Origin: Cymodocea nodosa
Taxonomy: Eukaryota > Streptophyta > Magnoliopsida > Alismatales > Cymodoceaceae
Direction: 5' to 3'
Assembly: GCA_036874045.1 (NCBI GenBank)
Contig: CM072345.1
Location: 3,621,501-3,685,500 of the forward strand
Length of the DNA: 64,000 nucleotides
How positions within the stretch are numbered: position 1 is the first letter of the stretch; each line of letters begins with the position of its first letter. Positions 6,153 to 50,827 of this stretch are shown here, piece by piece. The position numbers were made by a program, and so were the translations under genes. Under the pieces are notes generated by a model, which did not search any database, was not told where the DNA came from, and saw only the letters and a program-made list of their open reading frames with translations.

Positions 6153-6164
6153 GTTCTGATACCA
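6153..6164 (-). other. Primer-binding site of element A
   Basis: The minus strand reads TGGTATCAGAAC two bases after the LTR end. It differs by one base from TGGTATCAGAGC, the complement of the plant initiator-Met tRNA 3' end. It fixes the inner edge of the 5' LTR. Confidence 0.9.
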
Positions 6165-6166
6165 CT

Positions 6167-7731
6167 TGTAGGATCATATGGCTACCCAAGAGGAGGGTGA
6201 ATTGTGTATTTTTAATATTTTCTGAAATATAATTGAAACTTTAAATCCCAAAAACAAGTCGAGACATTGTTTTCATAAAATCATTTTTATTCAAGGTTTC
6301 AATTACAATATACAATTCAATTCTCCTCAGAAATTGTAGATGCAATTATATTTCGATACCATGTATAATCTAAACAATTTCATAACTACAAACAGAGAAA
6401 ACTAATTTGCGGAATTTAAAACTTTTCTCCCTGTTTGAGATCTTTCTTCTTCTTTTTCTTCTTCAGCAATTCTTTAGTGACGAATATCTTGTCTTTTCAT
6501 GCTTCACCGAATTTGCTTTCTTCTGATACTTCAAATCTTTAGTGACGAAAATCTTACCTTTTTATGCTTCACTGAACTTTCTTCCACTTGAGAGATTTTT
6601 CCCGAGAAGGTGTTTTTGATCCCTGAAAAAAAATTTTCTTTTGGTGTGCAGGGATGGTTTGATCCTTGAAAAGATTTTTCGTTTTGTGTGCAAGGATGGT
6701 TTGATCAACGAGAATTCTATGCCTTTTATACTGTATCTTCATTTCATGCATATCCTTCACGTTTAACCACTACCAGTTTTCCACTTCTCCACGTCTTTCC
6801 TTTTTCCTTCATCGAAACACACACGTTCTAACCCACGTTTATATTTTGAATTTTCTTTAATCATCAGTCTTGGATCTTTGAAAAATTTCCTGCAAAATAA
6901 ACTTTCTCGTCCAAAAGTTTTCATCAATGTAATAAGAAGTCATTACTTTAATGTTAACTAAACGAGTAACACAAGTATATATATATAACTTAACGAGTTC
7001 ACCATGTGCTATTTCACGTGACAAGTACTGTAGCTAACTCAATGAACTAAGTCTGTGGTGTTATGCTATCTTAACGAACCATCTCCGTTGTATTATGATA
7101 ACTCAACGAACCAGTAATAAACAAATGTTTTTATAATAAGAATTTTACCACGTGCAGAAATAACAACTTAAGTTTATAACGCTAACCTAACGCGTTGCCT
7201 TAGTGTTCAATATTGCAACTCAACGCGTTTAGTTATGTTAACTTAACGAGTTAAACATGAGCACCTCACGTGATATAATACAACATTGGTAACTTATAAT
7301 TTCACCACGTGTATAACACTAACTTAACGAGTTCGTCTCTTCTTTTACTCACTAACTTAACGAGTTATCATGTGACCTATTTTAACCTTTAAGCCTCTAA
7401 CTTAACAAGTTTTCACGTGACCTCTATACAAATGAAACTCTAACTTAACGAGTTGTCTAAACGTGCACTGTTCATGATACAGAAGATATAACATTAAAAC
7501 ATATCATACTTTTCAATAAAAACACACGTTAACTTAACGTTTAGCTAAATGAGAAATTAATGCAACTAAACGACTAGTTATTAACTTCAGATCTAATACA
7601 GACAAGTATTTATATCAGTAAGCTTTTTCTATATTAATTGATGATTTTAATTTCTTTTCACAAGCAATAGTAATTGAGGAAATATGATTATTTTCATTCA
7701 GCACACATCATCAAAACAAAAATACTCAACA
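6167..7731 (-). repeat. 5' LTR of element A (family 1)
   Basis: On the minus strand it starts TGTTGAGTATTTTTG and ends ATCCTACA (TG...CA), matching the LTRs of B and C and the solo LTR. U3 (about 6945-7460) holds seven exact TCG-N3-AGTTA motifs, all in element-sense direction and mostly TCGTTAAGTTA or TCGTTGAGTTA, with several CACGTG sites between them. The TATA box is at 6722-6730. The transcribed part (about 6470-6700) has two short tandem duplications, one of about 66 bp and one of about 45 bp. Confidence 0.92.
6722..6730 (-). promoter_or_regulatory. TATA box of element A LTR
   Basis: TATAAAAGG on the minus strand lies downstream of the motif array. The same box is found in C (20558-20565), the solo LTR (28028-28036) and B (62204-62212), so it is a family feature. 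Confidence 0.75.
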
Positions 7732-8162
7732 AATAATTTAAAAAAAAACAAATAAACTATTTTAGATTCAAAGGACAAAATGTTCAAATAGTTTACAATG
7801 TTCTCAAGATAATGTTAAGTTTAGCATGTGTGTTGCTTTTGGAACGTTTCAGTTGGAAGCATCCAAAAATTGTTTAGTTTACTAACTAGATGTTATGTTA
7901 GATAAGGTAACGTGTAAAAATGCCTCTAGACAGCGTTTTACTCGTTAGGTTAGTTAACTCAACGAGTTATACTTGAATATTTCGGGTACCTTGATTGAAT
8001 AAACTTTATTCAATATTTATTTAATTTCTAAACCCGACTTCTCTTCACATTAAGTTATACGCCTAAAAATCCTATTTAAACACTTATTACACGGGCACTT
8101 AGGTTATTTGTAAACTTTGTCAAGAAAATCTTTCTCGCTTGTTGCTATTACAACCTACGACG
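7732..8162 (+). promoter_or_regulatory. Leader in front of ORF3 of element C, possible internal promoter
   Basis: It contains an inverted pair of the family-1 LTR motif around 7938-7968: one exact copy (TAACTCAACGA, reverse) facing one near-copy (TCGTTAGGTTA). A TATA-like TATTTAAA lies at 8073-8080, 83 bases before the ORF3 ATG. The corresponding region of element B (54646-55080) keeps the same arrangement. The promoter role is inferred. Confidence 0.45.
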
Positions 8163-10429
8163 ATGGTCTCCAAATTCTACAAAGGTCGTGGTAGAGGAAA
8201 AGGCAAAAGCAAAGGAGATGCAAGAGGAAAAGAAATAGAGAATGATGAAGTTCCACGTACTTGGTTTGAGAAAATATTTCGAGTGGACAAAAGGTTATCA
8301 GAAATTTATAGTTAATATTTCTTTCCTGAAGGTATACTAAATGAAGTTAAACAAGAACTCCAAAATACTGATGCTAGTATTACATACATGGGTATTCGTA
8401 GTAAATTTGATAGAGAATACAGAATGAAATGTGCTGAGATTGCATTTTTGGAACAATATGAAAAATATTTGGAAAATGTGTAGGTTCATCAAATAGAACT
8501 CCTCAAACTCCTATAAACGGTACAAGACGACATGCATTTGAGGAAGAGCATGAATCAGCTATCCCTACTCCTTTATATTCAAAACAAGTAGAATCAGATA
8601 TTGCTGTAGACAAAACAAAAGTTGACAGTCTTTGAAAGGCCGTTGCAATAGAAAGTGCCTTAGAAGAATTAAAGTAGAAAACTTTTATGGAGCAATTTGA
8701 AAAGAAAACAGTAATACTTGAAAAGGAGAAACAGAAATGTTATAGAAGAAGGAAAGTTAGAAAAATTATGTCTAAGGAAACAAAGTCTATTGAAAAAGGA
8801 AAATCAGACGAAAATTTATTTCCAAAGGACAATGTATGTCTAGACATTGTACCTTATTGTGCATCTGATAAACTCATCAGTTCCGAACACACTGAAACTA
8901 ATGTAGATAATGAGACTTTATTTTCCCTTGCTAGAAAGCTTGAGAAGAAATACAAGTCAAATATGAGCTCAAGTTTTTCTATTAGTACAAGTCCTGATGA
9001 TGCAGAAATTAACAAATCAGAGCATCAGCCACCTGACATTGAACAAGTTATTATAGATATAATTGACAATGTTGAAGCAGTAACTAGTTCACAGGCTGAA
9101 TTGTCTAGAGTAGCAGATATTGAAAATATTAAGACTCTAGAAGAGCTAAAAGTTAACCAACCTTCTACAGAATCTATAGAAGTAGAGTCTAAGAATTCAC
9201 AGCATGAATCAATGGAATTATCTGTTGAACAAAATGAACAATTATAGACAGATACACCGGTTGTAGAATTTGTGGAAATATTGAACTCTGAACATTCTAT
9301 AGAGACTGAACAGATGAATGTTGAGCATATTGACAATGTTCCTAACACTGTTGAAGCTAAAAAATCAAGCTTACTTGAGCAACTTCAAGATAATATTTTG
9401 GAAGAGGAACAACATGACATTCATTTTGAAGAAGAGGTTCCTGAAGATGAATTAAACTCTGAATCACGGCTTCAGGTATCACCTTCTTTGTATAGAATAT
9501 TAAAAATTCAAGGTAATGCAATTCATTTTAGATTTGAAGAAGCATTGCAGAAATACAATAATCTGATTACATGTCAGATTTTGCATGCTCGTCCAATAAA
9601 ATTCAGAAATTTGATGGAAATAAGAGATCTGTTTGAGTTTCAAGGCCTCATTAAATTCTTGCCAGTAGGAACGAAATGGAAGCAATACATAGAGCTTATT
9701 GCAGCTTTTTATAGCAATTTGGTCAAGAATGGAAATTTTCTGAATACTCAAATAAATGAACAGGAGTTTATATTGTCTCTTGAGTTAATTTTTGAAGTTT
9801 TAGGATTAAAGAATGAAGGTGTTGTTGTTACCAATAGATTTGACATGATAAGACAACTGGAATGGAACATTCAGTCTTTATCAAAAATTCCAGATGTATA
9901 TTCTAAAATGAGATTAATGGATAATCTGAATGTAGAGGCAAGGTTTATTGCAAATATATTGCATGCAAATTTATTTCAGAGAGTTGGACACAATTTGGAA
10001 GTCAATAGAAGCTGTTTATATGCAACTTATAGCCTGCTGAATAGAATTCAAATAAATTGGTTTGATGTATTTATGTCTCTACTACAGCATATGAGTTCAA
10101 AGTTATTTTATGGTGATGCTGTATGTACAATCCTTGCAAGCTAATTGACTTTATCCGATTGGCCCTCTGAAACTTAAGGCATGAGAGCATTTAGTGTCAA
10201 AGATTTGCAAAAATTCTAGGCTATGCATAAACCTCAACGACAACAACAACAACAACCTAATACAGACCATATACAACAACAATAACAAAGTTATTCAATT
10301 CAAGTAGAACAGCAAACCCAGCTACCTCCTGACTTAGATGCAGTGTTTAACGACATCAGAAATGATATTAGGCATCTAGGAGATAAAATATGTAATGCTA
10401 TAAGTGATATACTCAAGAGGGGTCGATAA
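8163..10429 (+). pseudogene. ORF3 of element C, Transposase_32-like protein
   Basis: The ATG at 8163 opens MVSKFYKGRGRGKGK, a basic Arg/Gly/Lys-rich start also found in B. An acidic Glu/Ser-rich middle follows (about 8690-9470). A conserved globular region runs from about 9470 to 10110, with HARPIKFRNL, FEFQGLIKFLP, EVLGLKNEGVV, ARFIANILHANLFQR and CLYATYSLLNRIQ. It resembles the plant 'putative transposon protein' (Transposase_32-like) domain in its IL-H-x-L and tyrosine-leucine helix pattern. The tail is Gln-rich and ends in an amphipathic ICNAISDILKRGR. It sits where SIRE elements keep their extra 3' gene. Stops near 8314, 8479 and 9245 and late breaks disable it. Function is unknown. Confidence 0.8.
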
Positions 10430-11126: not shown

Positions 11127-12840
11127 TGTTAGGATCGGTAGACTCACTAGAGGGGGGGTGAATGGTGAAAGTGTGTAATTTTTAAGTTCCTTTGATTGTT
11201 GAAACAAATGATTCAGATAGAAGTGAAATGAGATGAATTTAAAAAATGCAAAGCAGTAAAGAAAGATAACACACAGCAAGTTTTAGGTGGTTCACCAACT
11301 TGGCTAGGCCACCCCCAAGATTCACTTGGGCTTCACTAAGTGTTTCAACACTTACACACTTGCTTTCAGGTCAAAGCAAGAACCAACAACATAGAAGTTT
11401 TCAGGTAAAAACTTCAGTAAACCAACCTCTAGAGTTTTCAGGTCAAAACTCAAACCAACAACTGAATGTAGCTTTCAGGTTGAAGCCACAAACCAACAAC
11501 TTGAATCTTTCAATCAGAGTTTGGCGCACAAAGCTTTTTCTGTAGTAAGTCTTTAAAGTATACTTCACTGTTTGCAGACTTGAGTGTATTTGAAATTGGG
11601 GTGTAGCTCAGTGTATAAATTATATCTGTTGTGTCTTTGTTCTTCTCTTAAACTCCTCATATATATGCTAAAGGCATAACGATCATATTTTTCTTTCAAC
11701 GGATGTATTCTGCTGTACTTGGTAAATAATCAGTCCTAAATATGGTAAGTTACCGTTCTGTTTGATATTCAGTAAATAACCTTCCGAAAATCTCAGGCTT
11801 TTGGATGGTTATAAAAATAACTTACCGAAAAGCATCCATAACTTGCCGATTCATCACTCATGTTCTGTTCTCTAAGTCACGTGAGGATTTTAAGTTGCTC
11901 ACGTGTAAAGTTGAATGTTCGGAGTCTTGTATTTAACTTATCGAAAGAGCTCCTGATTTTCGGATAGTTAACTACTGTAACTTACGGAACTTTCATTTAA
12001 GCCTCTGACAATTGTTCCTTCAAAACTACACGTGCATAAAAACATAACTTAAGTTTCGGATAGTTAAGCCATAACTCACCGAAAATCTCTTGAGATTTCG
12101 AATAGTTATCTTTCTAACTCTTCGAAAACTTAAATGATATTCTTTTTGGAATTCTACACATGACAATTTCAATAACTTAAGTTTCGGATAGTTAAATTGT
12201 AACTTACCGAAACTCTCTTTGAAATTTTGGATAGTTAACTAACTCTCCGATTTTTCTCTTTTAATCTTTCAACTACCGGCATCTCCATTTTGCACGTGCG
12301 TAATAAAATGACTTAAGTTCCGAAAAGTTATGCCTGTAACTTACCGAAAAACTCGAATAGTTATCTAACTCTCCGAAAAGAAAACTCGGATAGTTATCTA
12401 ACTCTTCGATAAGTCCTTTAAGCTTCCGTTCTATATTTCTGCATGTGATTTATTGAATGACTTAAGTTTCGGATAGTTAGCCTTTCTAACTTTCCGATTT
12501 TCCTTTTTCTTTCGGATAGTTAACTCCATAACTCTCTGATCATTCAACCAACTTAACTGTCTGATATAATAACTCTCCGAAGGCTTTGTAAAATTCGGAT
12601 ATTTATCCTTTTAACTGTTAGATAGTCTTGCTGCTATTTTATTCTTCGGATGCTTGAACCTGTAACTGTCTGATTTTACTGTAACTTGAAAGTATTATCA
12701 TCTAGAGCCTTCTCAATCTGTTTATTTGCTTGGAAATTGTTCTAACAACCTTCTGAACTAAAGCAGTGCAAACTTAACTGTGAAATACAATATGTTTCCT
12801 CACATAGGTTTTGCATTATCAAAATACTCGGGTTCTAACA
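11127..12840 (-). repeat. 3' LTR of element D
   Basis: On the plus strand it runs from TGTTAGGATCGGTAGACTC to GGTTCTAACA. It is near-identical to 17930-19644. A TATA-like run (CATATATATG on the minus strand) lies near 11660. U3 is 11800-12610, which is almost entirely motif array. Confidence 0.95.
11800..12610 (-). promoter_or_regulatory. U3 motif array of element D 3' LTR
   Basis: I count 20 exact TCG-N3-AGTTA motifs in about 810 bp (8 on the plus strand, 12 on the minus). They mostly alternate in facing pairs separated by a few bases, for example TCGGATAGTTA then TAACTTACCGA. ACTTAAGT precedes several copies, and CACGTG sites lie some 10-15 bases further out. Chance expectation is about 0.03. 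Confidence 0.8.
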
Positions 12841-13251
12841 ATCCCCCCCTTTTTGATAATGACAAAAACCTTTACATTTATTTACATGTATTTCACTCCC
12901 TAGTGTATTACTATACAATCAGTCACACAGAGAAAAATAAAACAGGAATTTATCAATACTATACTGATGAGAAGAGATTCCTCCCCTTGACTTTGAGCTA
13001 ACTTCTCCCCCTATCTGTGTGCTGAGTTTTTATTCTCTTTTAATGATTCTCTTTTAATGATTCCCTTTCAGTGCTTGCTGGAAATACTGTAAGTGACCAA
13101 ATTTTCAAATTCTTCTCCTCCTTTTTGTCATTATATAAAAAGGTGAGGACTGTAAAACTAAGTTTCTGTAAAACTGATATTGACTGTATCCTGCACAAGT
13201 AGGTTAGTAGCAAAAACAAGCTCCCATATGGTGAGCTTGATGAAAAAATAT
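12841..13251 (-). other. Polypurine tract and 3' untranslated region of element D
   Basis: The tract beside the LTR, AAAAAGGGGGGGAT on the minus strand, occupies 12841-12855. A second run, ACAAAAAGGAGGAGAAG on the minus strand, is at about 13110-13130, some 270 bp upstream. No coding frame of note is present. Confidence 0.75.
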
Positions 13252-16329: not shown

Positions 16330-16339
16330 ATTATACTGA

Positions 16340-17929: not shown

Positions 17930-19644
17930 TGTTAGGATCGGTAGACTCACTAGAGGGGGGGTGAATGGTGAAAGTGTGTAATTTTTAAGTTCTTTTGATT
18001 GTTGAAACAAATGATTCAGATAGGAGTGAAATGAGATGAATTTAAACGAATGCAAAACAGTAAAGAAAGATAACACACAGTAAGTTATAGGTGATTCACC
18101 AACTTGGCTAGTCCACCCCCAAGATTCACTTGGGCTTCACTAAGTGTTTCAACACTTACACATTTGCTTTCAGGTCAAAGCAAGAACCAACAACATAGAA
18201 GTTTTTAGGTAAAAACTTCAGTAAACCAACCTCTAGAGTTTTCAGGTCAAAACTCAAACCAACAACTGAATGTAGCTTTTAGGTTGAAGCCACGAACCAA
18301 CAGCTTGAATCTTTCAATCAGAGTTTGGCGCATAGAGGTTTTTCTGCAGTAAGTCTTTAGAGTATACTTCACTGTTTGCAGACTTGAGTATATTTGAAAT
18401 TGGGGTGTAGCTCACTGTATAAATTATATCTATTGTGTCTTTGTTCTTCTCTTAAACTCCTCATATATATGCTAAAGGCATAACGATCATATTTTTCTTT
18501 CAACGGATGTATTCTGCTGTACTTGGTAAATAATCAGACCTAAATATGGTAAGTTACCGTTCTGTTTGATATTTAGTAAATAACCTTTCGAAAATCTCAG
18601 GCTTTCGGATGGTTATAAAAATAACTTACCGAAAAGCATCCATAACTTGCCGATTCATCACTCATGTTCTGTTCTCTAAGTCACGTGAGGATTTTAAGTT
18701 GCTCACGTGTAAAGTTGAATGTTCGAAGTCTTGTATTTAACTTACCAAAAGAGCTCTTGATTTTCGGATAGTTAACTACTGTAACTTACCGAACTTTCAT
18801 TTAAGCCTCTGATAGCTATTCCTTCAAAATTGCACATGCATAAAAACTTAACTTAAGTTTCGGATAGTTAAGCCATAACTCACCGAAAATCTCTTGAGAT
18901 TTTGGATAGTTATCTTTCTAACTCTCCGAAAACATAAATGATCTTCTTTCTGGAATTCTACACGTGGCAATTTCAATAACTTAAGTTTCGGATAGTTAAA
19001 CTGTAACTTACCGAAACTCTCTTTTAAATTTCGGATAGTTAACTAACTCTCCGATTTTTCTCTTTTAATCTTTCAACTACCGGCATCTCCATTTTGCACG
19101 TGCGTAATAAAATGACTTAAGTTCCGAAAAGTTATGCCTGTAACTTACCGAAAAACTCGAATAGTTATCTAACTCTCCGAAAAGAAAACTTGGATAGTTA
19201 TCTAACTCTCCGATAAGTCCTTTAAGCTTCCGTTCTATATTTCTACACGTGATTTATTGAATGACTTAAGTTTTGGATAGTTAGCCTTTCTAACTTTCCG
19301 ATTTTCCTTTTTCTTTCGGATAGTTAACTCCATAACTCTTTGATCATTCAACCAACTTAACTGTCTAATATAATAACTCTCCGAAGGCTTTGTAAAATTC
19401 AGATAGTTATCCTTCTAACTGTCCGATAGTCTTGCTAATGTTTTATTCTTCGGATGCTTGAACCTGTAACTGTTTGATTTTACTGTAACTTGAAAGTATT
19501 ATCATCTGGAGTCTTCTCAATTTGTTCGTCTGCTTGGAAATTGTTCTAACAGCCTTCTGAACTAAAGCAGTGCAGACTTAACTGTGAAATACAATATGTT
19601 TCCTCACATAGGTTTTGCATTATCAAAATACTCAGGTTCTAACA
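17930..19644 (-). repeat. 5' LTR of element D, with degraded primer-binding site
   Basis: It starts (minus strand) TGTTAGAACCTGAGTATT and ends GATCCTAACA at 17930. The adjacent binding site at about 17917-17928 reads TTGGATCAAAGC, one base deleted and one changed from the canonical site seen intact in E. The U3 array (about 18600-19400) has 18 exact TCG-N3-AGTTA motifs in facing pairs. Confidence 0.94.
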
Positions 19645-20557
19645 TAGACAACTCGTTAAGTTAGAGTTTTGTTTGTATAAAAGTCACGTGAGAACTCATT
19701 AAGTTAGAGGCTTAAAGGTTAAAATAGGTCACGTGATAACTCGTTAAGTTAGTGAGTAAAAGAAGAGACGAACTTGTTAAGTTAGTGTTATACATGTGGT
19801 GAAATTATAAGTTACGAATGTTGTATTGTATCACGTGAGGTGCACATGTTTAACTCGTTAAGTTAACATAACTAAATGCATTGAGTTGCTATATTGAACA
19901 CTAAGGCAACACGTTAGGTTAGCGTTATAAACTTAAGTTGTTATTTTTGCACGTGGTAAAATTCTTATTATAAAAACATTTGTTTATTACTGAATCGGTG
20001 AGTTAAAGTTTTTCGGAGACTTACAATCGTAACTATCCGAAAGGTAACTTAAGTCATGTTTTCAGGTCTTGACATGTGTCTCACTAGTTTTATAATATAA
20101 AGAGTTTTTCGGTGACTTACATCCATAACTATCCGAAACTTAAACTGTTTTCGGTGAGTTATCGTTTAACCTTCCGAAAGAAAGGTTAAGCTGATTCGTT
20201 GAGTTAGCATAACACCACAGACTTAGTTCGTTGAGTTAGCTACAGTACTTGTCACGTGAAATGGCACATGAGGAACTCGTTAAGTTAGAAATGTTAAGTT
20301 ATATATATATACTTGTGTTACTCGTTTAGTTAACATTAAAGTAACGACTTCTTATTACACTGATGAAAAATTTTTGGACGAGAAAGTTTATTTTGCAGGA
20401 AATTTTTCAGAGATCCAAGACTGATGATTAAAGGAAATTTGAAATATAAACGTGGGTTGGAACGTGTGTGTTTCGATGAAGGAAAAAGAAAAGACGTGGA
20501 GAAGTGGAAAACTGGTAGTGATTAAACGTGGAGGATATGCATGAAATGAAGATACAG

Positions 20558-20565
20558 TATAAAAG
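20558..20565 (+). promoter_or_regulatory. TATA box of element C 3' LTR
   Basis: TATAAAAG lies downstream of the U3 array (19650-20340) and just upstream of the CT- and GA-rich transcribed segment. It is conserved in position with A, B and the solo LTR. Confidence 0.7.
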
Positions 20566-21128
20566 ACATAGAGTTCTCATTGATCAAACCATCCTTGCAC
20601 ACAAAATGAAAAATCCTTTCAAGGATCAAACCATTCCTGCACACCAAAAGAAAAATCTTTTTTAGGAATCAAAAACACCTCTTCGGGCAAAATCTCTCAA
20701 GTGGAAGAAAATTCAGTGAAGCATAAAAAGGTAAGATTTTCGTCACTGAAGATTTGAAGTATCAAAAGAAAGCAAATTTGGTGAAGCATAAAAGGACAAG
20801 ATATTCGTCACTGAAGAATTACTGAAGAAGAAAGAAGAAGAAGAAGAAGAAAGATCTCAAACAGGGAGAAATGTTTTAAATTCCGTAAATTAGTTTTCTC
20901 TATTTGTAGTTATGAAATTATATAGATGAAACATGGTATCAAAATATAAATGCATCTACAATTCCTGAGGAGAATTGAATTGTATATTGTAATTGAAACC
21001 TTGAATAAAAATGATTTTATGAAAACAATATCTCGACTTGTTTTTGAGTTTTAAAGTTTCAATTATATTTCAAAAAATATTAAAAATACACAATTCACCC
21101 CCCTCTTGTGTAGCCATACGATCCTACA

Positions 21129-21398
21129 GTTGGTAACTTATATTACCTGATCTCAATCATGTAGTGTTCTGAGCTTTTGTCTCACCGCTAGTGGCTTTTG
21201 ACTCTCGTATGCGTCAGCCCTAGCTACACTCTTTATCCTTTCTAGGGGGAAGTGGGCAAGTGCCAGTTTCAGACATTAGGTCGTCCGGTTTGCCCGATCA
21301 TAAAATTACCTCAAAAAACAAGGAATGAATGAAAGAAAGGCCAGAAGAAGAGACAAGTGAAACTAAAAGACAGACTTGTGTGGGGTTACCAGAGGCTT
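21129..21398. other. Unassigned sequence right of element C
   Basis: No coding frame, LTR end or tRNA is seen. It is probably part of the gypsy 3' untranslated region that also holds the minisatellite, because Tat-type elements often carry tandem repeats between pol and the 3' LTR. Confidence 0.4.
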
Positions 21399-25186: not shown

Positions 25187-26438
25187 TCATTGATAGAACC
25201 ACCTCAAGTTGGAGCGGTTTACCAACTCCTCGATGGTACTTTCCCTGACTTAACGAATATATGCAGCCCCCCTAGAGAGGAGTCACATCACCCAATATGG
25301 CCCCTTCCAATTGGGTTGGAATTTGCCACATTGGTTTGATCTATGCAATCGGCGAAGAACGAGATTGCCCTCTGATATAGGGTGAGGTTGCACCTTCTTG
25401 TTGTATGCACGTGCTTGCCTATTTTAGTAGCAACGTGCATGATGAAGTGCCTGAAGGTGACATTCATCCAACAGATCCAATTGCAAGTACCGGTCCTCAA
25501 GCCACTCTACGTTAGTAAGTTGGGTTTCCCTTAAGGACGCGAAGTGAGGGGATTTCCACTTCGATAGGTAAAACCGCTTCAGATCCAAAAACCAACGAGA
25601 AAGGAGTGTCACCGGTCGAAGAGCGGATGGCGCATCTATAAGCCCATAGAGCGTATGGAAACTTCTAGTGCTAGTCTTGACACGTCTCCATCGTCTTCTT
25701 AAGGATTTGAATGAGGTTCTTGTTTGCCGCTTCTACAGCGCCATTCATTTGTGGTCGATATGGCGTAGAGTGGTGATGTTTGACTCCAAGCGTCTCTAAG
25801 TACTGTTGTACTAAGCCTGCGATGAAATTAATACCATTATCAATAAAAACCTCAAATGGGACACCATACTTGGTGACAATGTAGTCTCGAATGAACTTCT
25901 GAGTGGCATTGGCTATGACCGTCCGATAGGTTGCCGCTTCCACCAATTTGGTGAAGTAGTCGATTGCCACCAAGATATATCTGTGTCCATTTGACACGTT
26001 CGGACAAACTTCGCCAATGACATCTAACCCACACGTCGAAAAGGGCTAAACTCCTACGTCATTGGCATATAATGGCATTGGAGGAGCATGTGGCACATTC
26101 GAATGTAACTAGCAAGTTGGGCACTTCCTGACATGGTTACAACAATCTACTTCCATGGTAGACCAATTGTATCCTTGCCTTAGAATCTCCTTGGCAAGGA
26201 AAAGGTCATTCATATGTGGACCATAGGTACCTTCATGCATCTCTTGCATGATGGTCTCTGCCTCTAGTTGATCCACACATCTCAGGAGCATGTGGTTGTG
26301 GGATCTGTGGTATAGCTGATTGCCACCCAACACATATCTGCTCGCCATTCTGGCCAATGTCCTCCTATCTGCTACATGGCATTCTGATGGGAAGGATCCA
26401 TCTTTGAGGTATGCCATGATATCGTGGAATCATGGTTT
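25187..26438 (-). pseudogene. Tat/Athila-type Ty3-gypsy integrase fragment
   Basis: The fragment opens in the RNase H-integrase linker (FHDIMAYLKDGSFP; the preceding Trp codon is TGA). The HHCC zinc finger follows (HEGTYGPH ... CCNHVRKCPTC, about 26109-26260). The core has VAIDYFTKLVEA, FIDNGINF and NGAVEAANKNL, the usual three acidic sites of this clade. The C-terminal part (about 25250-25620) is shifted in frame but includes [19 protein letters not shown], then NLRWFYQ and a stop at 25187-25189. The upstream RT and RNase H are cut off by element E at 26439. Integrase would insert element cDNA; this copy is dead. Confidence 0.9.
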
Positions 26439-27064
26439 TGTTAGAACCCGAGTATTTTGATAATGCAAAACCTATGTGGGGAAACATATTGTATTTCATA
26501 GTTAAGTTAGAGCAGCATTAGATCAGAAGGCAGATAAAACAAATTCCAAACAGACGAATAGATGGAGGAAGTTCTAGAAGATACTGCCTTAAAGCTACAA
26601 GAAAATCGGACAGTTACAGGTCCAAGTATCTGAAGAGTAAAACAGCAGCAAAACTATCGGACAGTTAGAAGGATAACAATCCGAATTTTTCAAAGCCTTC
26701 GGAGAGTTAAATAATCAGACAGTTAAGTTGGTTGAATGATTGGAGAATTAAGGAGTTAACTATCCAAAAGAAAAAGGAAAATCAGAAAGTTAGAAAGGCT
26801 AACTATCCAAAACTTAAGTCATTCAATAAATCACATGCAGAAATACAGAACGGAAGCTTAAAGGATTGTCAGAGAGTTAGATAACTATCCGAGTTTTCTT
26901 TTCGGAGAGTTAGATAACTATTCGAGTTTTTCGGTAAGTTACAGGTATAACTTTCTAGAACTTAAGTCATCTTATTACGCACGTGCAAAATGGAGAAGCT
27001 AGTAGTTGAAAGCTTAAAAGGGAAAATCGGAGAGTTAGATAATTATCCAAAATTTCAAAGAGAG

Positions 27065-27469
27065 TTTCGGTAAGTTACAATTTAACTATCTGAAACTTAA
27101 GCCATTGAATTTCCCACGTGCAGAATTCCAGAAAGAAGCTCAAATAAGTTTTCTGAGAGTTAGAAAGATAACTATCCAAAATCCTAAAGCGTTTCGGTGA
27201 GTTACAAGGATAACCATCTGAAACTTAACTCGTTGAATTTTCCACGTGCAGAACTCTAGAAAGAAGCTCAAATAAGCTTTCGGAGAGTTAGAAAGATAAT
27301 TATCTGAAATCTTAAAGTGTTTCGGTGAGTTACAAGGATAACCATCCAAAACTTAAGTCATTGAATTTCCCACGTGTAGAATCCTAGAGAGAAGCTCAAA
27401 TAAGTTTTCGGAGAGTTAGAAAGATAACTATCCGAAATCCTAAAGCGTTTCGGTGAGTTACAGGGATAA
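27065..27469 (+). repeat. 128-bp tandem repeat in the E LTR
   Basis: Three full units begin at 27065, 27192 and 27320, and a fourth begins at 27448 and continues beyond the solo LTR at 29089. Each unit holds TTTCGG(T/A)(G/A)AGTTAC, a facing TAACCATC..GAAAC or decayed form, CACGTG and a CGGAGAGTTAG pair. It shows U3 growing by duplication of a motif module. Confidence 0.85.
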
Positions 27470-29083
27470 TATAGGATCGTATGGCTACACAAGAGGAGGG
27501 TGAATTGTGTATTTTTAATATTTTCTAAAATATAATTGAAACTTTAAAACTCAAAAACAAGTCGAGACATTATTTTCATAAAATCATTTTTATTCAAGGT
27601 TTCAATTACAATATACAATTCAATTCTCCTCAGAAATTGTAGATGCAATTATATTTCGATATCATGTATCATCTAAACAATTTCAAAACTACAAATAGAG
27701 AAAACTAATTTGCGGAATTTAAAACTTTTCTCCCTGTTTGAGATCTTTCTTCTTCTTCTTTTTCTTCTTCAACAATTCTTCAGTGACGAATATCTTGTCT
27801 TTTCATACTTCACCGAATTTGCTTTTTTTCTGATACTTCAAATCTTCAGTGACGAATATCTTACCTTTTTATGCTTCACTGAACTTTCTTCCACTTGAGA
27901 GATTTTCCCGAAGAGGTGTTTTTGATCCCTGAAAATGATTTTTCTTTTGGTGTGCAGGGATGGTTTGATCCTTGAAAAGATTTTTCGTTTTATGTGAAAG
28001 GATAAATTGATCAATGAGAATTCTATGCCTTTTATACTGTATCTTCATTTCATGCATATCCTTCACGTTTAACCACTACTAGTTTTCCACTTCTCCACGT
28101 CTTTTCTTTTTCCTTCATCGAAACACACACGTTCTAACCCACGTTTATATTTCGAATTTTCTTTAATCATCAGTCTTGGATCTTTGAAAAATTTCCTGCA
28201 AAATAAACTTTCTCGTCCAAAAGTTTTTCATTAGTGTAATAAGAAGTCGTTACTTTAATGTTAACTAAACGAGTAATACAAGTATATATATAACTTAACG
28301 TTTCTAACTTAACGAGTTCCTCATGTGCCATTTCACGTGACAAGTATTGTAGCTAACTCAACAAACTAAGTCCGTGGTGTTATGCTATCTCAATGAACCA
28401 TCTCCGCTGTGTTATGATAACTCAATGAACCATTTCCGTTGTGTTATGATATCTCAATGAACTAGTAATACACAAATGCTTTTATAATAAGAATTTTACC
28501 ACGTGCAAAAAATAACAACTTAAGTTTAAAACGCTAACCTAACGCGTTGCCTTAGTGTTCAATATAGCAACTCAATGCGTTTAGTTATGTTAACTTAACG
28601 AGTTAAACATGTGCACCTCACGTGATACAATACAACATTCGTAACTTATAATTTCACCATGTGTATAACACTAACTTAACGAGTTCATCTCTTCTTTTAC
28701 TCACTAACTTAACGAGTTACCACGTGACCTATTTTAACCTTTAAGCCTCTAACTTAACGAGTTCTCACGTGACCTCTATACAAAGAAAACTCTAACTTAA
28801 CGAGTTGTCTAAACGTGCAATGTTCATGATACAGAAGATCTAACATTAAAACCTATCATGCTTTTCAATAAAAACATACGTTAACTTAACGTTTAGCTAA
28901 ATGAGAAATTAATGCAACGAAATGACTAGTTATTAACTTCAGATCCAATACAGACAAGTATTTATATGAGTAAGCTTTTTCTGTATTAATTGATGATTTT
29001 AATTTCTTTTCACAAGCAATAGTAATTGAGCAAATACGATTATTTTCATTCAGCACACATCATCAAAACAAAAATACTCAACA
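27470..29083 (-). repeat. Family-1 solo LTR
   Basis: A 1614-bp LTR related to those of A, B and C, with no internal region. The 5-bp duplication GATAA stands on each side (27465-27469 and 29084-29088). The right end is ACTCAACA; the left terminal TG has become TA. It arose by recombination between the two LTRs of a full element. The TATA box is at 28028-28036 and the motif array at about 28250-28810. Confidence 0.94.
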
Positions 29084-31604: not shown

Positions 31605-32144
31605 TTGCAGGGTGATAAGGAGTTTCAAGCATGTTCAACTAAATGGATCGTGGATAGTGGATGCTCAAAGCACATGACAAGTAAGAAAATTTTTCTTGAC
31701 TTTGTTAAAAACTTAAGTTCAGGATCTGTTAAGTTTGGAAATAATGAAAAGTGTAAAATAACTGCAATAGGAAATATTACATCTGAAAATGGTATAATTG
31801 AGAATGTCTTGCATGTAAATGAATTAAAACAAAATTTGTTAAGTGTAGGACAATTATGTGATAAAGGTTATACTATTTCTTTTAATGCTGAAAATTGTTT
31901 CATTATTGATCCAGCCTCGAATGAAACAAAATTTACTGGTTTTAGAAATTGCTCAATTTAAACATTAAACTTTCCATGTGAAAATTCTACAAGCAATTCA
32001 TATTTGATAGCAACTAGTGAAGATGATTGGGTGTGGTATAGAAGACTTGGCCATATCAATATGAAGAATATCAGGAAGCTATCCACGAGTGATCTTGTCA
32101 GGGGTCTGCCTAAACTCACTTTTAAGAAAGATAGAGTATGTAGT
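31605..32144 (+). pseudogene. Protease and pre-integrase of element E, cut by element F
   Basis: The protease site WIVDSGCSKHMTSKK is near the start, and the frame stops near 31959. It then continues with RRLGHINMKNIRKLS and KKDRVCS, where the sequence is replaced by F's LTR at 32145. The integrase core is absent: E resumes only at the RT motif QPPGFEDE at 42812. Confidence 0.88.
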
Positions 32145-33365
32145 TGTTAGGTATTTAATTTTGAAGATGTATGCTTTATTAATATATTTAAATAAGTCTA
32201 CATAATATTCTCTAAGTATATTTCTCTAAGTATAATAGTTAACAGATTATCGGAAAGTTTCATTTTTATGTCGGATAAATTAAAGATTTCCGAAGAGCTA
32301 GATTTGCAATAGTTAAACTTTTGGATAGTTAACGTTTCGTTTTTGTCGAATACTTTATGTTAAAAACTCGTATAGTTAAGTTATCCGCACGTGTGTTTTT
32401 AATGTTTTAAGTTGTCACGTGTTTTCCATGTGTGTTCGGTAATGAAAAATCGAATAGTTAGATAACTGTTCGAGTTTTTATACGCATGGATAGATAACTG
32501 TTCGAGTTTTATAAAAGGACTAACGAACAAATAAGTTTCCTTGTTTAGTCACGTGTTTTGCAGGTGCAAGAACTCGAAGAGTTAAATGATAAGTGTTCGA
32601 GTTTTGACAGGAGTTAAAGGATAAATGTTCGACTAAATCGAAGACTTAGAAGATATTCTACAAGACTCTAGGAAAATAAAATTTCGGTGAATCTACGAGT
32701 GGAGATCGTGGAATCTCAGATTGTTAGTGAAGAAAGTGGAAATTTAAATAGAAAGTAATTTGGATTAAAGAGAAAATTAGTACGTGGATTATGGATTATG
32801 GATTGTGGATCAAGTGGATGAACATGCTGAACGTGAAAGACAACAGAGTTCGACTACTAATAGAGAGTACGAGCTACATTACAATAGAGGATCCCAATCT
32901 CAAAAACCAAGTCTGAATATTCAATTTGGATCCCTAACTGAAAAGTTAAGTTTGAATATTCATATTCTGAAAAGTTCTCCAACATCAGAAGAAGTTCAAA
33001 ATTCCAAGCAATTTTAGAAAAGGAGCTGCAAACGCAAGAAGTTTGGAAATTCGACAACTAGAGAAGAAGAGATACAAAAGTTGAGCAAAGAGAAAGAAAA
33101 GAGTTGTGTGCATAAAGATCAGGTTTTATACAATTCAAAATTAGTTTTGAAAAAGAGCTTTGTTTTCCTATTTGAATTGTATATCAAAAATTACTGTATC
33201 AAAACCGTCAAGAAGGGAATTGAGCTGAAAAGATATTGTAAATTCTGTCTTGAAATAAAAGAATAGAATTTCATTTACGAGTATTTTGTGCTCTTGTTTT
33301 ATCCGCTATTTTAATTACTAAAGACACAATTCACCCCCCCCTCTTGTGATACAGACGATCCTACA
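32145..33365 (+). repeat. 5' LTR of element F
   Basis: Starts TGTTAGGTATTTAATTTTG and ends GATCCTACA. The 3' LTR at 41592-42811 matches it closely. Below the TATA box the sequence is largely purine-rich, and it ends with the C-run plus CTCTTGTGATACAG segment resembling the ends of the other two families. Confidence 0.94.
32368..32584 (+). promoter_or_regulatory. U3 motif array and TATA box of element F 5' LTR
   Basis: Five exact TCG-N3-AGTTA motifs lie at 32368-32378, 32450-32460, 32463-32473 (reverse), 32495-32505 (reverse) and 32574-32584. The second and third face each other across two bases and form a 24-bp near-palindrome. TATAAAAG is at 32510-32517. CACGTG sites lie nearby. Confidence 0.75.
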
Positions 33366-33469
33366 ACTGGTATCAGAGCAATTAAACTATTTAAAGCATC
33401 TGAAAAGCCTTCATTTCTCTATTTAGGAATTTGTTTTTCCTGTCATTTACTTCGGATAATCTGTTCAAA
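33366..33469 (+). other. Primer-binding site and leader of element F
   Basis: The exact site TGGTATCAGAGC is at 33368-33379, two bases after the LTR. The leader runs to the gag ATG at 33470. Confidence 0.9.
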
Positions 33470-37974: not shown

Positions 37975-38799
37975 CTAAACTGTCGGTGACTTGCAGGTAT
38001 TTTAATTCTTAAGTATCCGAATTTTCTATTGTTTCGGCAAGTTATATTACAAGTATCAGACAATTGTGTTTTAAAACGTTCAATAGACTATTTTATTATT
38101 TCCTGAAGTACACATGTCGAAACCATAATGCATGACTTAAGTGGATTTTCGGTAAGTTATCTGTAACTCTTCGAAATGTGTCTGGGCATCGGAAAGTTAG
38201 ATTTGTAACTGTCCGAAACATCTCTTTATTATAAAACTACTTAAGTACACGTGTCGTGATCTGGATGATTGACTTAAGTTATCTTTCAGAAGGTTATCTG
38301 TAACTCTCCGAAATGCACCTGAGCATCGGATAGTTAAGTTTATAAGTCTCCGAAACTTTCTGAACACCTTAAGTTCAAATTGTGCACGTGTTGAATTTCA
38401 CTGCTTTATAATGTCTCAGTCGAAACTCGAAAAGTTATGTTTAAATCTTCGAGTTTTCACACCTATTCCTTCGAGAAACTCGAACAGTTATCATAAGTCT
38501 TCGAGTTTTCTCACTTTTTCACTTAGCTTGAAGTTATTTCTTTATATGCACAATTACGCTAAGTACTCTGCAATTGTTGGTTGTAAAACTTGTACAGTTA
38601 TTGCAAGCACTCGAGTTATTTATCGGTAACGGATCTTATATTTATGATTTCAATGATTGAATTCGTTTGTCCATTTATAAACTCGGAGAGTTATGAATGT
38701 TTTCCTAACAACCTTTCGTGTTTCTACATTGGTAAAACCCTAGCTTCACAATCTTTCCTTCCACTAAGTTCTACAGTGCAAAGCGAAGATTAATCAACA
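37975..38799 (+). promoter_or_regulatory. Motif array in front of ORF3 of element F, possible internal promoter
   Basis: Ten exact TCG-N3-AGTTA motifs lie between 38034 and 38693: forward at 38034, 38149, 38189, 38326, 38427, 38480 and 38683; reverse at 38164, 38206 and 38301. Several form facing pairs. CACGTG occurs at 38248-38253 and 38385-38390, and ACTTAAG precedes some pairs. This is the composition of a U3 region, yet no LTR ends are seen. A weak TATA-like TTATATG is at about 38542. An old fragment of another LTR is the main alternative. Confidence 0.6.
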
Positions 38800-41265
38800 A
38801 TGTTAAGACGTGGAAGATGACGTGGTAGAATGACCAAAGTGCAGAAAAGAGAGCTGGAACTTCAGAAAATGCAGAATGAAATCAACGATATTTACTCCAG
38901 GTACACTTTTTCAAACAAAGTACTACACGAAATCAGAAAAGCTGTTCAAGATGAGAAAAATTTCTATTGGAAATTTATTCGAAATTATGCTGAAACACAG
39001 TTTAGACTAAAACAGATTGAACTTTCCGCATTGCATTTATGAAAAAGAAATTTACAACCTAACCCTGCGATTGTAAGTTCTGGACATGTACTAGAGACAT
39101 CGATACAGTCTATCACTTATTATGGAAAGAAGTGGGGACCAATGATCGAAAATGCAAACAAGGAATTACAATCCTTGTATTCCCAACATTATTTTCCCCC
39201 AACTGTTTTAGATGATATTAAATAGTATATCGATGAACAGAAAACTGCCATTAGCAAAATGGGCCTTTGAAGTGAAGGACAAAGAGTTTATCAACTCAAA
39301 ATGGCAGAGGTGGAGAGCTTAAAACTCTATATTCCATTATTACCACCTAGGCATCATGGTGAAGGACTATCAAGACAACAGGTGCCTTTAACAGGAGAAA
39401 TTAAGACAATTTTAGAACCTCCTGAACAACCTGAAACACTACAGACATATAGTCGGACAAAGAAAAAGACAATTGAATATTTTGGACTAACTGCAGGTGT
39501 ACAAGGAATATTACAGCAAAAAGAAGAATCAGTGAAAAATGGAAAACTATGCTCTATTGCAAAAGCTGGACAGACATTTTTGTCAGGAATCCCAGCAGAT
39601 GTGGCAAATATTGGCTTACAAGCATATACTCTAAGGTATTGTGTCACATTAGTGCATAATGTATCTTTTAATACAATGGACTGTTTTTCACACAATGCTG
39701 CAAGCACACATTCTTTTCCTACAGAAAGTGAGAATGTAGGAAATTTTGATGATATATATATAGATGATATCAAATTTGATGATATTATTGATGACATAGA
39801 CACTGAGTCTATGAATTTTGAAGATATTTCATCTGAAGAGGAATGTACAGATATTCTTCCTCTTATTGTATCTCGAACAGAGACTTTTGAATTTTGGTAC
39901 AGTTGCTTATACTACACTTTATATGTATGGTTATGTCTGTTACAATATATCGTATACTTGTTGATAAATGTATATAATCAACAACATACACAGTTACAAA
40001 TAGAATATGATACTACCAATGCCTCACATATACAAATTTCAGAAATACAAGATGATTCTATTCCACAAACAAATATAGAACATTCTTTCATACAGAGACA
40101 GTTGTATAGATCACATATAGATATATAGGTTGCTGATATACAGATTGTTATAGAGACTATTGCTTCTAAAATGTTTCCAGAAGAACAAACAGAAGAAATT
40201 CAGTAGATTATTGATACGACAATAAAAGATATTTCAAACATTTATATTAGTTTTGATAGAAATTCCACTAGTTCTGAAAGATCTGACAATATAGATGCTG
40301 CTGATAATATTGAAACAAGTCCCAGATCAGAACATCATGACAGGAAAATACCTAATCCTGAACAGAGTTTAGATGCAAATACACTATTATGGTTTAGAAA
40401 TAATTCCTGTTATGACAAATTTCAGACATAAAATTTTTACAGTTTTATATTCAAGACTAGTTAAGTTTGAAGGGATGGCACACATACATGAACTGTTTGA
40501 ATTTCAAAGCTTGTTGACTCTACTTCCGCAACAGCCAGGCCATCTTGCTATACCCGAACTTCTCAATTGTTTTTACTCAAACTTAACAATGGAAGAAGGT
40601 ATTCCTGTTTCTAATATACAAAAAAATGACATATATTTAACTCCAGATTTACTTCATCAGGTACTTGGTTTGAAAAATGAAGTAGTTAAATTATCAGAAA
40701 GAAAACAGGTTTATCGATTGGGATGGGACATTACAAGTTTAGCCAAAGATCCAACTACCAACAAACCATTGACATTACTAAATGACTTAAATGGCCAAGC
40801 ACGTTTTATTGCAAAAATATTGCATGCTACATTGTTTCAGAGGTTTGGTCATGGGACAGAAGTTGGCAGATGTTGTCTTTATGCTACATACGCATTAATC
40901 AACCATATACAGGTGAACTGAAAAGATTAAAGTCACGATCTTTCTCTGCAAAGGAACTCCAAATATACCAAGCGGCAGATACACCCATCCTCAGACAGCA
41001 ACAATCCACAGAATTTACAGAAACACAGCAACATTCAGATATACAACAAGATATACATATAGATATACAACAAGGTATACACAGAGAAATACATACAGGT
41101 ATAGATACAGACATACATACTGAATTTTTACAGCAACCATCACAAGTTTCTCAAAATGATTTCGATCAAGCATTACTTGATTAGATAAACAGAGTTAGTA
41201 CAGATATTGCAAAGACAATTTCAGACACCCTGATTGATATTTTTCGAAGACAAAGAGGCTTGTGA
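38800..41265 (+). pseudogene. ORF3 of element F, Transposase_32-like protein
   Basis: The ATG at 38800 gives a short basic start (MLRRGR, then a TGA in an Arg position), comparable with the RGRGKGK start in C. An N-terminal helical part runs to about 39290. The 275-codon frame 39301-40128 has acidic IDDIKFDD-type repeats and a hydrophobic stretch at about 39895-39985 that could span a membrane. The conserved region (40373-40918) includes FEFQSLLTLLPQQPGH, QVLGLKNEVVKLS, ARFIAKILHATLFQRFGHG and CLYATYALINHIQ, lining up with C and B. The tail is Gln/Ile/His-rich and ends in SDTLIDIFRRQRGL. Stops and a frame change near 40380 disable it. Confidence 0.8.
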
Positions 41266-41591
41266 TTATACAAATTATGTATTACATGATTTATTTTTTG
41301 TAATTTGTAACCAAAATCATTATGTAAACTGTTTACTGATTTTAAAGTTACGTGATTATTTTTCACAGTTTATGATATTAAACAGTTTTTGCTTAATCCA
41401 TAAATCCTATGTATGATTGACACTATCGTTTTGATTAATATATACTTAGTAAGATATCCTTCCTTACATTTATAACACTTAACTTCCTAAAGGAGGAGAA
41501 AATAGTTTGTTTACTTTTTTATAATGCCAAAAAGGGGGAGATATAAATTATGTGACTTATTAGGTTTTGACATCATCAAATAGGGGGAGAT
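41266..41591 (+). other. 3' untranslated region of element F with two polypurine tracts
   Basis: The first tract, AAAAAGGGGGAGAT, is near 41529-41542. The one adjoining the LTR is AAATAGGGGGAGAT, ending at 41591. They are about 50 bp apart. Confidence 0.8.
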
Positions 41592-42811
41592 TGTTAAGTA
41601 TTTAATTTTGAAGATGTATGCTTTATTAACGTATTTAAATAAGTCTACATAATATTCTCTAAGTATATTTCTCTAAGTATAATAGTTAACAGATTATCGG
41701 AAAGTTTCATTTTTATGTCGGATAAATTAAAGATTTTCGAAGAGCTAGATTTGCAATAGTTAAACTTTCGGATAGTTAGCGTTTCGTTTTTGTCGAATAC
41801 TTTATGTTAAAAACTCGTATAGTTAAGTTATCCGCACGTGTGTTTTTAATGTTTTAAGTTGTCACGTGTTTTCTATGTGCGTTCGATAATGAAAAATCGA
41901 ATAGTTAGATAACTGTTCGAGTTTTTATACGCATGGATAGATAACTATTCGAGTTTTATAAAAGGACTAATGAACAGATAAGTTTCCTTGTTTAGTCACG
42001 TGTTTTGCAGGTGCAAGAACTCGAAGAGTTAAAGGATAAGTGTTCGAGTTTTGACAGGAGTTAAAAGATAAATGTTCGACTAAATCGAAGACTTAGAAGA
42101 TATTCTACAAAACTCCAGGAAAATAAAATTTCGGTGAATCTACGAGTGGAGATCATGGAAACTCAGATTGTTAGTAAAGAAAGTGGAAATTTAAATAGAA
42201 AGTAATTTGGATTAGAGAAAAAATTAGTACGTGGATTATGGATTATGGATTGTGGATCAAGTGGATGAACATGCTGAACATGAAAGACAACAGAGTTCGA
42301 CTACAAATAGAGAGTACGAGCTACATTACAACAAAGGATCCCAATCTCAAAAACCAAGTCTGAATATTCAATCTAGATCCCTAACTGAAAAGTTAAGTTT
42401 GAATATTCATATTCTGAAAAGTTCTCCAACATCAGAAGAAGTTCGAAATTCCAAGCAATTTTAGAAAAGGAGCTGCAAACGCAAGAAGTCTGGAAATTCG
42501 ACAACTGGAGAAGAAGAGATACAGAAGCTGAGCAAAGAGAAAGAAAAGACCTGTGTGCATAAAGATCAGGTTTTATACAATTCAAAATTAGTTTTGAAAA
42601 AGAGCTTTGTTTTCCTTTTTGAATTGTATATCAAAAATTATTGTATCAAAACCGTCAAGAAGGGAATTGAGTTGAAAAGATATTGTAAATTCTGTCTTGA
42701 AATAAAAGAATAGAATTTCATTTACGAGTGTTTTGTGCTCTTGTTTTATCCGCTAGTTTAATTACTAAAGACACAATTCACCCCCCCTATTGTGATACAG
42801 ATGATCTTGCA
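41592..42811 (+). repeat. 3' LTR of element F
   Basis: Starts TGTTAAGTATTTAATTTTG and ends GATCTTGCA, where the 5' LTR has GATCCTACA. Six exact TCG-N3-AGTTA motifs are present. The TATA box is at 41957-41964. Confidence 0.94.
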
Positions 42812-45685: not shown

Positions 45686-45893
45686 TGTATGGTTACTGGT
45701 ACAAAGAAGGGGGAGAAAAAAATCAAGGGATGGTTTGGCATGGCATCCCTTAGACGTGAATGACCCCTTACATATATAGGAGCAATAGTTGGTGATACAC
45801 AAAAGACAAGTTTGCCCCTGTACAAATTATCAAAGAAATACAACCATATTCAATGACACATACATATACTTGATGGAAGACACACGCATCACA
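45686..45893 (-). repeat. 3' LTR of element H, truncated
   Basis: It matches 50620-50827 with scattered differences, while the part equivalent to 50455-50619 is missing. The inner start, TGTGATGCGTGTG on the minus strand, follows the purine-rich AATGTGGAGATT, the polypurine tract. Confidence 0.88.
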
Positions 45894-45961
45894 AATCTCC
45901 ACATTGTCTTTCATTAATTTTCACCACGAATAGGTTATGGATCACCAAGACTCAACTTGGG

Positions 45962-48900: not shown

Positions 48901-49108
48901 TTGTGCCATCATGTAGTTTAAATTTTATAATGCCCACACCAACTCTAGAACACACATCATCATTGGCTAAAGTCACTTGACCACCCTCCACCTGCTCGTA
49001 GGTGTCAAAATACTCCCCAGTAGGAATCATATGATGTGAAGCTCCTGTCCATAATCCACTGATCATCAGAATAGGCACTGCAACAAACTGTAAGAGAAAA
49101 GTCATCAC
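45962..49108 (-). pseudogene. Protease-integrase-RT-RNase H of element H
   Basis: At the protease site the expected Asp-Thr/Ser-Gly triad is broken: ATGGAC is followed by AGGAGCTTC, consistent with two lost bases, and the frame changes to GASHHMIPTGEYFD. Integrase shows the zinc stretch (WHSRMGHLGQ ... CKHCVFGKHK), a damaged core (48185-48510) and VERLNRTLLEKAR with the third acidic residue. RT (46757-47500) has LDVKTAFLHGELEE, SLYGLKQSPRQWYKRF and an intact YVDD in LLLYVDDILIAAKN. RNase H ends with TKHIDVKYHFL and a TGA at 45962-45964; a stop lies at about 46755. Enzymes would copy and insert the element; this copy cannot mature its polyprotein. Confidence 0.9.
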
Positions 49109-49150
49109 CTAACGTAGAACTAGTTTCTACCACAACAACCTTTCCTTTGT

Positions 49151-50454: not shown

Positions 50455-50827
50455 TGTTGTGCAGAAAGATCAAACAAACATGGAGCATCTAGGGGTGGCG
50501 TGGAGAAGAGATCTGCGTGGAAGAGAGGATTGCGAGTGGAGAATTCGAAGAACAACAAATTTACGTGGTTCCCCAACACAGGTACGTCCACGGGTGATCA
50601 ATCTATTGTGATTCTTTGCTGTATGGTTGCTGGTACAAAGAAGGGGGAGAACAAAATCAAGGGATGGTTTGGCATGGCATCCCTTGGACGTGGATGACCC
50701 CTTACATATATAAGGGCAACGGTTTGTGATACACAAAAGACAAGTTTGCCCTTGTACAAATTATCAAAGAAATACAACCATATTCAATGACACATACATA
50801 TACTTGATGGAAGACACATGCATCACA
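50455..50827 (-). repeat. 5' LTR of element H
   Basis: Starts TGTGATGCATGTG and ends TCTGCACAACA on the minus strand. A TATA box (CTTATATATG) is near 50705. The inner part (50455-50619) is absent from the 3' copy. Confidence 0.9.

Follow-up and report, generated by a model that had tools for sequence, protein, structure and literature searches.

Arrays of the 11-bp word TCG-N3-AGTTA, candidate factor-binding enhancers, in Sirevirus and Athila-like retrotransposons of Cymodocea nodosa

In Cymodocea nodosa, the control sequences of several retrotransposon families that are unrelated to one another are densely filled with the word TCG-N3-AGTTA, which suggests that the same kind of DNA-binding protein reads them all. 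In a 64,000-bp stretch of contig CM072345.1 (the window) and in further sequence of the same genome, we observed enrichment of the word, a fixed spacing between its two blocks, constraint on its bases, helical phasing of neighbouring copies and a recurrent placement, and found it in copia Sireviruses, in gypsy Athila-like LTRs and before an F-box gene. We propose, with a probability of roughly 0.78, that the arrays act as factor-binding enhancers at both promoters of the elements. Protein binding, activation or anti-silencing, and a single factor class for all carriers are likely.

Results

Exact counting in the window revealed 115 copies (53 forward and 62 reverse). Genome-wide (374.6 Mb), counting returned 255,090 copies (126,383 on the plus and 128,707 on the minus strand) versus 11,883 (5,992 and 5,891) for a reversed-pattern control. 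In a small sample of 264 kb, composed of the window, 19 fragments of 10 kb and four of 2.5 kb, 243 copies were found against 4.2 expected under a first-order Markov model, a 58-fold excess, and the word, taken together with its own reverse complement, ranked first among the 46,222 spaced words occurring at least 40 times. These counts bear out the enrichment over chance claimed by a first-pass annotation of the window.

A spacer of three bases is required, as spacers of 1, 2, 4 or 5 yielded only a 0.5- to 1.4-fold representation in the sample. N3 is partly restricted, its middle base being A or T in 112 of the 115 window copies, and G was never seen immediately 5' of TCG in these copies. Single changes are tolerated at T1 (to C or A), A7 (to G) and G8 (to C). 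Neighbours expected from CpG decay, with TCA (77) or TTG (54), are common in the sample, yet just 3.5- and 2.4-fold above chance. The flanks of the 115 sites are weakly conserved.

Most window copies (103 of 115) lie inside Sirevirus LTRs, while 10 occupy the gap between pol and ORF3 in family 3 and two the corresponding gaps of family 1. The 48,189 bp outside the segments listed below hold two copies only, both of them these family-1 gap copies (7955 and 54842). Beyond the window, 120 of the 128 sample copies were assigned to named classes and 8 remained unassigned, in a classification that includes self-matches as its library pieces (Athila LTR and gap, ORF3 region, F-box stretch) came from the same sample. 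The features of the window are as follows, with element borders, TATA-like boxes and primer binding sites (PBS) judged by eye.

6160..7732, minus strand: element A 5' LTR, family-1 Sirevirus; direct array 6955-7451, 7 copies
7942..7965, plus strand: facing pair in the family-1 gap; TCGTTAGGTTA (one mismatch) and TAACTCAACGA (exact), offset 13
8163..10216, plus strand: ORF3 of family 1, interrupted in this copy; N-terminus basic; gypsy ORF3 homologue at L021:3339-4103(-)
10850-11126: element B LTR, first piece, split off by element D
11127..12846, minus strand: element D 3' LTR, family-2 Sirevirus; array 11818-12580, 20 copies, many as facing pairs
17930..19644, minus strand: element D 5' LTR, family 2; array 18622-19426, 19 copies
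19645..21135, plus strand: element B LTR, family 1; array 19653-20332, 11 copies
26438..27471, plus strand: element C LTR, family 2, first piece; array 26606-27460, 15 copies
27472..29083, minus strand: solo family-1 LTR inside the LTR of element C; array 28262-28803, 7 copies
29084-30006: element C LTR, second piece; 3 copies
32144..33366, plus strand: element F 5' LTR, family-3 Sirevirus; array 32368-32584, 5 copies
38034..38693, plus strand: element F internal array between pol and ORF3, candidate ORF3 promoter; 10 exact copies
39301..40921, plus strand: family-3 ORF3 pieces; weak PF20167 similarity in 40373-40921, below the curated cut-off
41591..42806, plus strand: element F 3' LTR, family 3; array 41768-42031, 6 copies; preceded by the Sirevirus polypurine tract (PPT) octamer AGGGGGAG
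45682..50827, minus strand: unrelated copia element with 212-bp LTRs, internal negative control; motif-free
52595..54705, minus strand: element G (family 1) ORF3; several open pieces
61753..63231, minus strand: element G 5' LTR, family 1; array 62438-62947, 10 copies

The annotation's 20 copies between 11800 and 12610 were recovered exactly (8 plus and 12 minus), as were 7 in element A and 5 and 6 in the LTRs of element F, and the further copies that it reported for the solo LTR amounted to 7. Its hand counts fell short elsewhere, as we found 19 rather than 18 copies in the other LTR of element D, 11 rather than 10 in element B, and 15 plus 3 rather than 11 in element C.

By their hallmarks, the motif-bearing copia elements of the window are Sireviruses. 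A copia-type gag/RVT_2 polymerase is present (PF07727, 5.2e-75 in family 1; PF14223, 5.9e-16 in family 3), and family 2 was placed with the copia Sireviruses through blastn/tblastn similarity. The PPT octamer AGGGGGAG, whose first base lies 10 bp upstream of the 3' LTR, is exact in families 1 and 3 and reads AGGGGGGG in family 2. By eye, the LTR inverted repeat is CATCATCAAA..TTTTGATGATG in family 1, CATTATCAAA..TTTTGATAATG in family 2 and imperfect in family 3, where CACCCCCCCC lies near the LTR end; the element F 5' LTR ends in polyC, followed by the PBS TGGTATCAGAGC. An env-like gene, a frequent feature of Sireviruses, separates pol from the 3' LTR in families 1 and 3 (ORF3), and no ORF3 match was found in element D (family 2). 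The LTRs of the three families share no mutual blastn match of at least 250 bp. Nested insertions were also observed at 10850-21135 and 26438-43564: element D lies in the LTR of B, the solo family-1 LTR in the LTR of C, and element F in the gag-pol of C.

Each family has its own arrangement of the motif, as the annotation had described. In family 1, the spacer is TTN in 30 of 35 copies and 33 of 35 run in the sense orientation, as direct repeats. Spacers begin with G in 50 of 57 family-2 copies, in mixed orientation (40/17), and 8 of 11 family-3 LTR copies carry AAN, also in mixed orientation (7/4). The internal copies of family 3 are mostly G-first (7/10). Close facing pairs have start offsets of 13 and 15-18, never 14. 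Same-strand spacings gather near 21, 31-33, 40-43, 52-53 and 62-64 bp, with a phasing of R=0.64 at 10.5 bp (n=50, deduplicated). Stricter versions gave p=0.0001 (n=39) and p=0.007 (n=30), and the strictest deduplication with a free period gave p=0.027, the signal weakening as deduplication tightens.

The core of the motif resists change. Pooled deviation from the column majority was 5/599 for core bases outside CpG versus 252/4645 for the background (p=1.4e-8), with a mild bias as sites were chosen on column majority. This is a roughly six-fold lower deviation than in the flanks, while the spacer (16/300) deviated at the background rate. The count took in 8 family-1, 4 family-3 and 7 Athila-like copies, and left out family 2 and the family-3 gap, with two probe-covering copies each. 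Core and background deviated at 4/371 versus 154/2440 in family 1, at 0/84 versus 70/1035 in the Athila-like copies, and at 1/144 versus 28/1170 in family 3, a difference that is not significant alone (p=0.36). In family 1, CpG within the motif decays like other CpG (18/122 versus 37/218).

CpG observed/expected ratios were 0.96-2.18 in five arrays, at a G+C content of just 0.33-0.35, compared with 0.17 in pol and with 0.11 and 0.65 in two stretches of R/U5. Once motif and G-box were masked, the ratios were 0.59, 0.22, 1.43 and 0.52 versus 0.28 in R/U5 and 0.10-0.26 in coding sequence. CpG outside the motif and G-box is thus mildly raised, and in family 2 not raised; a region-wide hypomethylation footprint read from CpG was dropped.

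CACGTG G-boxes, the usual sites of host bZIP and bHLH factors, number 42 in the 15,387 bp of motif segments (2.73/kb) versus 6 in the 48,613 bp elsewhere (0.12/kb), and each LTR and gap segment listed for the three Sirevirus families contains them. The word CTTAAGT is likewise enriched in motif-bearing segments (2.86 versus 0.23 per kb). Segments showing G-box/CTTAAGT enrichment include 6160-7732, 11127-12846, 32144-33366 and 38000-38700.

Arrays stand in front of ORF3, and in families 1 and 2 they precede TATA-like boxes identified by eye: one such box lies near 11658 in the element D 3' LTR, and a TATAAAAGG-like box near 6728 in the element A 5' LTR. The annotation had placed the motif in the U3 of three copia families. 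Arrays do lie in these LTRs, but that account proved too narrow, as copies also occupy the pol-ORF3 gaps and Ty3/gypsy LTRs. In element F, 38000-38700 carries 10 exact and 5 one-mismatch copies with 2 G-boxes, and the internal array was aligned with a 95.4% identical stretch in sample sequence L024. The family-1 facing pair at 7942-7965 lies about 200 bp 5' of the ORF3 ATG at 8163, and element G holds the equivalent exact gap copy at 54842.

ORF3 has a basic N-terminus (GRGRGKGK), and its homologue in L025 has a glutamine-rich tail. Family-1 ORF3 shows weak similarity to Transposase_32 (PF20167) in 9272-10144, below the curated cut-off. In a protein search, a 290-aa piece of ORF3 was 89-100% identical to the 135 candidates scored of 11,886 first-look candidates. 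A protein homologue search gave 532 candidates, none at E<=0.001, and Rfam gave no match at gathering scores. An AlphaFold model of the 290-aa piece, built from window-only sequences, reached pLDDT 33 and was discarded. Among the 19 ten-kb fragments, ORF3 occurs in six, all of which (6/6) have at least 7 motif copies; five others also have at least 7 copies, with ORF3 absent from the fragment. The role of env-like or extra 3' ORFs in plant LTR elements is described as an open question in two papers (PMC6317226, PMC7264820).

The motif is also carried by Ty3/gypsy elements in L009 and L021. RNaseH precedes integrase in L009, and L021 is 87% identical to it over the RNaseH-integrase stretch. We take these carriers to be Athila-like on account of a tRNA-Asp-like PBS and the protease. 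The annotated features outside the window are as follows.

L009:2479-3660, minus strand: gypsy polymerase; RNaseH 23-124, H2C2 223-279, rve 301-392
L021:139-810, minus strand: F-box ORF; PF00646, 3.2e-10; two exact motif copies right upstream

Further copies of this gypsy LTR-like stretch were found in L013, L020 and L023; within it, facing half-sites come right before an AT-rich TATA-like run. L009:470-600 contains two exact and three one-mismatch sites versus a resampled mean of 0.16 (at most one mismatch). On one strand of L021, pol is followed by near-matches and then by ORF3 (4103-3339). By eye, this pre-ORF3 stretch had been read as a motif array, but counting gave near-matches only: L021:5690-5880, a stretch chosen by eye, lacks exact sites and has 4 with one mismatch (300 resamples: mean 0.33, maximum 3), and L009:1430-1500 holds one one-mismatch site. 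Any array before the gypsy ORF3 is therefore decayed at best. This ORF3 shares 35% identity with family-1 Sirevirus ORF3 over 199 aa (E 2e-42) and 39% with a family-3 ORF3 in L024 over 153 aa. Since gypsy LTRs carry the motif and gypsy elements a homologous ORF3, copia and gypsy elements share both. At its right end (63232-64000), the window matches internal sequence of the gypsy element classed as Athila-like (L009, L020, L023).

The F-box gene of L021 is very multicopy, with 150 scored of 5,679 first-look candidates genome-wide, 150/150 at 83-100% identity, and is probably retroelement-borne. A frame upstream of it (L021:1845-2246-) looks gag-like by eye and matched nothing in Pfam at E values up to 0.1. 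The F-box stretch (L021:1-2900) showed no ORF3. F-box silencing suppressors are known from plant viruses, to which this gene may offer a parallel. L025:1-2510 contains two more LTR-like array families, one a decayed array adjoining an ORF3 homologue (959-1219-) and the second a direct TCGTAAAGTTA array (1851-2171).

Motif-free material was found as well, on a thin basis: 0 copies in the unrelated copia LTRs (2 x 212 bp, 424 bp), in L014 and L017 (10 kb each; other copia / gypsy RT at 39% identity) and at 21136-26437 of the window (gypsy RT at 27% identity). L010, L016 and L022, with gene-like ORFs by eye, contain 1 copy in 30 kb.

Discussion

The shared code described by the annotation is of a kind that has a precedent in the repeated motif (RM) boxes of Sireviruses. 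Bousios et al. (2010) reported these boxes, palindromes with a CGG-CCG core, from the LTRs and from the region 5' of ENV, and found no common factor for them (PMC2829016). As with RM boxes, our motif is copy-rich in the upper LTR half before the TATA box, has an extra cluster directly 5' of an ENV-like gene and keeps its core amid diverged flanks; clusters of RM boxes form CpG islands (PMC2829016), and the arrays here may be CpG-dense as well. There are exceptions in placement: family 1 has one pair only before ORF3, and in a family-3 LTR one copy (32574) comes after the TATA-like box at 32510. Published RM boxes are symmetric palindromes, with one exception (Tnd-1), and are described as Sirevirus-specific, and AGTTA is absent from all 13 consensus words of Table 3 in that source (PMC2829016). 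In contrast, the unit here is an asymmetric half-site, direct in family 1 and present in gypsy LTRs too; its first spacer base is G, giving CGG, in 50/57 family-2, 4/35 family-1 and 1/11 family-3 LTR copies. Because families 1 and 3 lack the palindrome and its CGG-CCG core and the motif extends beyond Sireviruses, we class it as RM-like, an asymmetric variant that would work in the manner of RM boxes.

As the core is constrained, the spacer drifts and same-strand spacings are helical, the word looks like a protein-binding half-site. We propose a bipartite half-site (TCG plus AGTTA, about one helical turn, with A/T as the middle spacer base) for one DNA-binding factor class, which may bind as closely set facing dimers and/or as multimers along one helix face. 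Groups of 5-20 sites, interspersed with G-boxes in the Sirevirus families 1 to 3, would form an enhancer in the LTR U3. In front of the accessory gene ORF3 stands a further array in family 3 and one pair in family 1. These sites would drive, or keep open, both element promoters. The shared code read by one factor class, as proposed by the first-pass annotation, is well supported by the fixed spacing, constrained core and phasing, but it reaches further, into pre-ORF3 regions, gypsy LTRs and the F-box upstream region.

Functionless spread of the word through tandem duplication of a short unit would be extremely improbable. Some arrays are indeed tandem (27037-27469, 128-bp unit), but site flanks are weakly conserved, spacers drift as fast as the background while the core changes more slowly, sites are found in either orientation, and no alignment joins the LTRs of the families. 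We also consider it highly improbable that the sites serve as RNA or DNA hairpins, a small-RNA source or an integration target instead of binding a protein: facing pairs could form short hairpins, and there are papers that mention Sirevirus LTRs in connection with a host epigenetic response, but the direct repeats of family 1 (33/35 sense) form no such hairpin, and the helical phasing of direct copies points to a protein on DNA. An AP-1/GCN4-like reading (TGAGTTA, which we take to be the motif of that class) was dropped because N3 varies.

Which protein would read the half-sites is a matter of our own estimates. We give even odds to a host transcription factor, MYB-like or other, for which the elements evolved many sites independently, alongside those of host G-box factors. 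The occurrence of the motif in both superfamilies and upstream of a multicopy F-box gene with no ORF3 in view, the lack of alignment between the three families' LTRs and the G-boxes in all their listed segments are consistent with such a factor. AGTTA/TAACT is presumably a MYB core. The single copy in 30 kb of gene-like sequence and the motif-free copia and two other gypsy lineages argue against a host reader.

A tentative alternative reader is ORF3 itself ('env-like', Transposase_32-like), which would bind the motif and activate its own family and relatives or lift their silencing, in the manner of VANC in VANDAL transposons; the F-box element would be a hitch-hiker. The ORF and the LTR site common to both superfamilies favour it: homologous ORF3 occurs in copia families 1 and 3 and in the gypsy Athila-like element, exact sites precede ORF3 in both copia families and lie in the gypsy LTRs, and the L025 homologue adjoins a decayed array. 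The basic N-terminus and glutamine-rich tail would fit a regulator, and a nuclear localization signal is predicted in the sunflower Athila Transposase_32 ORF (PMC11728184). Athila-type elements are reported to carry a PF20167-like accessory ORF 3' of pol, as the gypsy carrier L021 does, and the accounts of them, as far as consulted, mention no promoter motif common to copia (PMC11728184). On the other side, no DNA-binding fold was seen (pLDDT 33, PF20167 below the cut-off), the gypsy pre-ORF3 stretch has zero exact copies, the F-box stretch and five motif-rich fragments lack ORF3, and RM-bearing Sireviruses without ENV exist (PMC2829016). Other readers are a minor possibility.

VANC21 and VANC6 motifs, YAGTATTAY and AGTTGTCC/AGTTGTAC, lie in dense non-coding arrays (PMC5735166). 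The likeness extends to a short motif with family-specific variants and an accessory protein in the same element (PMC5735166, PMC10398659). VANDAL is however a DNA transposon with a different protein, VANC21 motifs have one orientation, and binding and demethylation were demonstrated there (PMC5735166, PMC10398659). It is somewhat doubtful, but conceivable, that ORF3 is a sequence-specific trans-regulator (activator or anti-silencer) with TCG-N3-AGTTA as its cognate site, the gene and site forming a module that passed between Ty1/copia Sireviruses and Athila-like elements of the Ty3/gypsy type, or persisted in both, and that the F-box element exploits. If true, this would amount to a genome-wide retrotransposon regulon.

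Among the titles and abstract openings listed for Sireviruses, Athila, envelope-like ORFs and LTR motifs, none concerned a motif common to copia and gypsy elements. One motif in two superfamilies that also share an ORF offers a concrete, cheap binding test, and would bear on how retrotransposon expression is coordinated and perhaps on escape from silencing.
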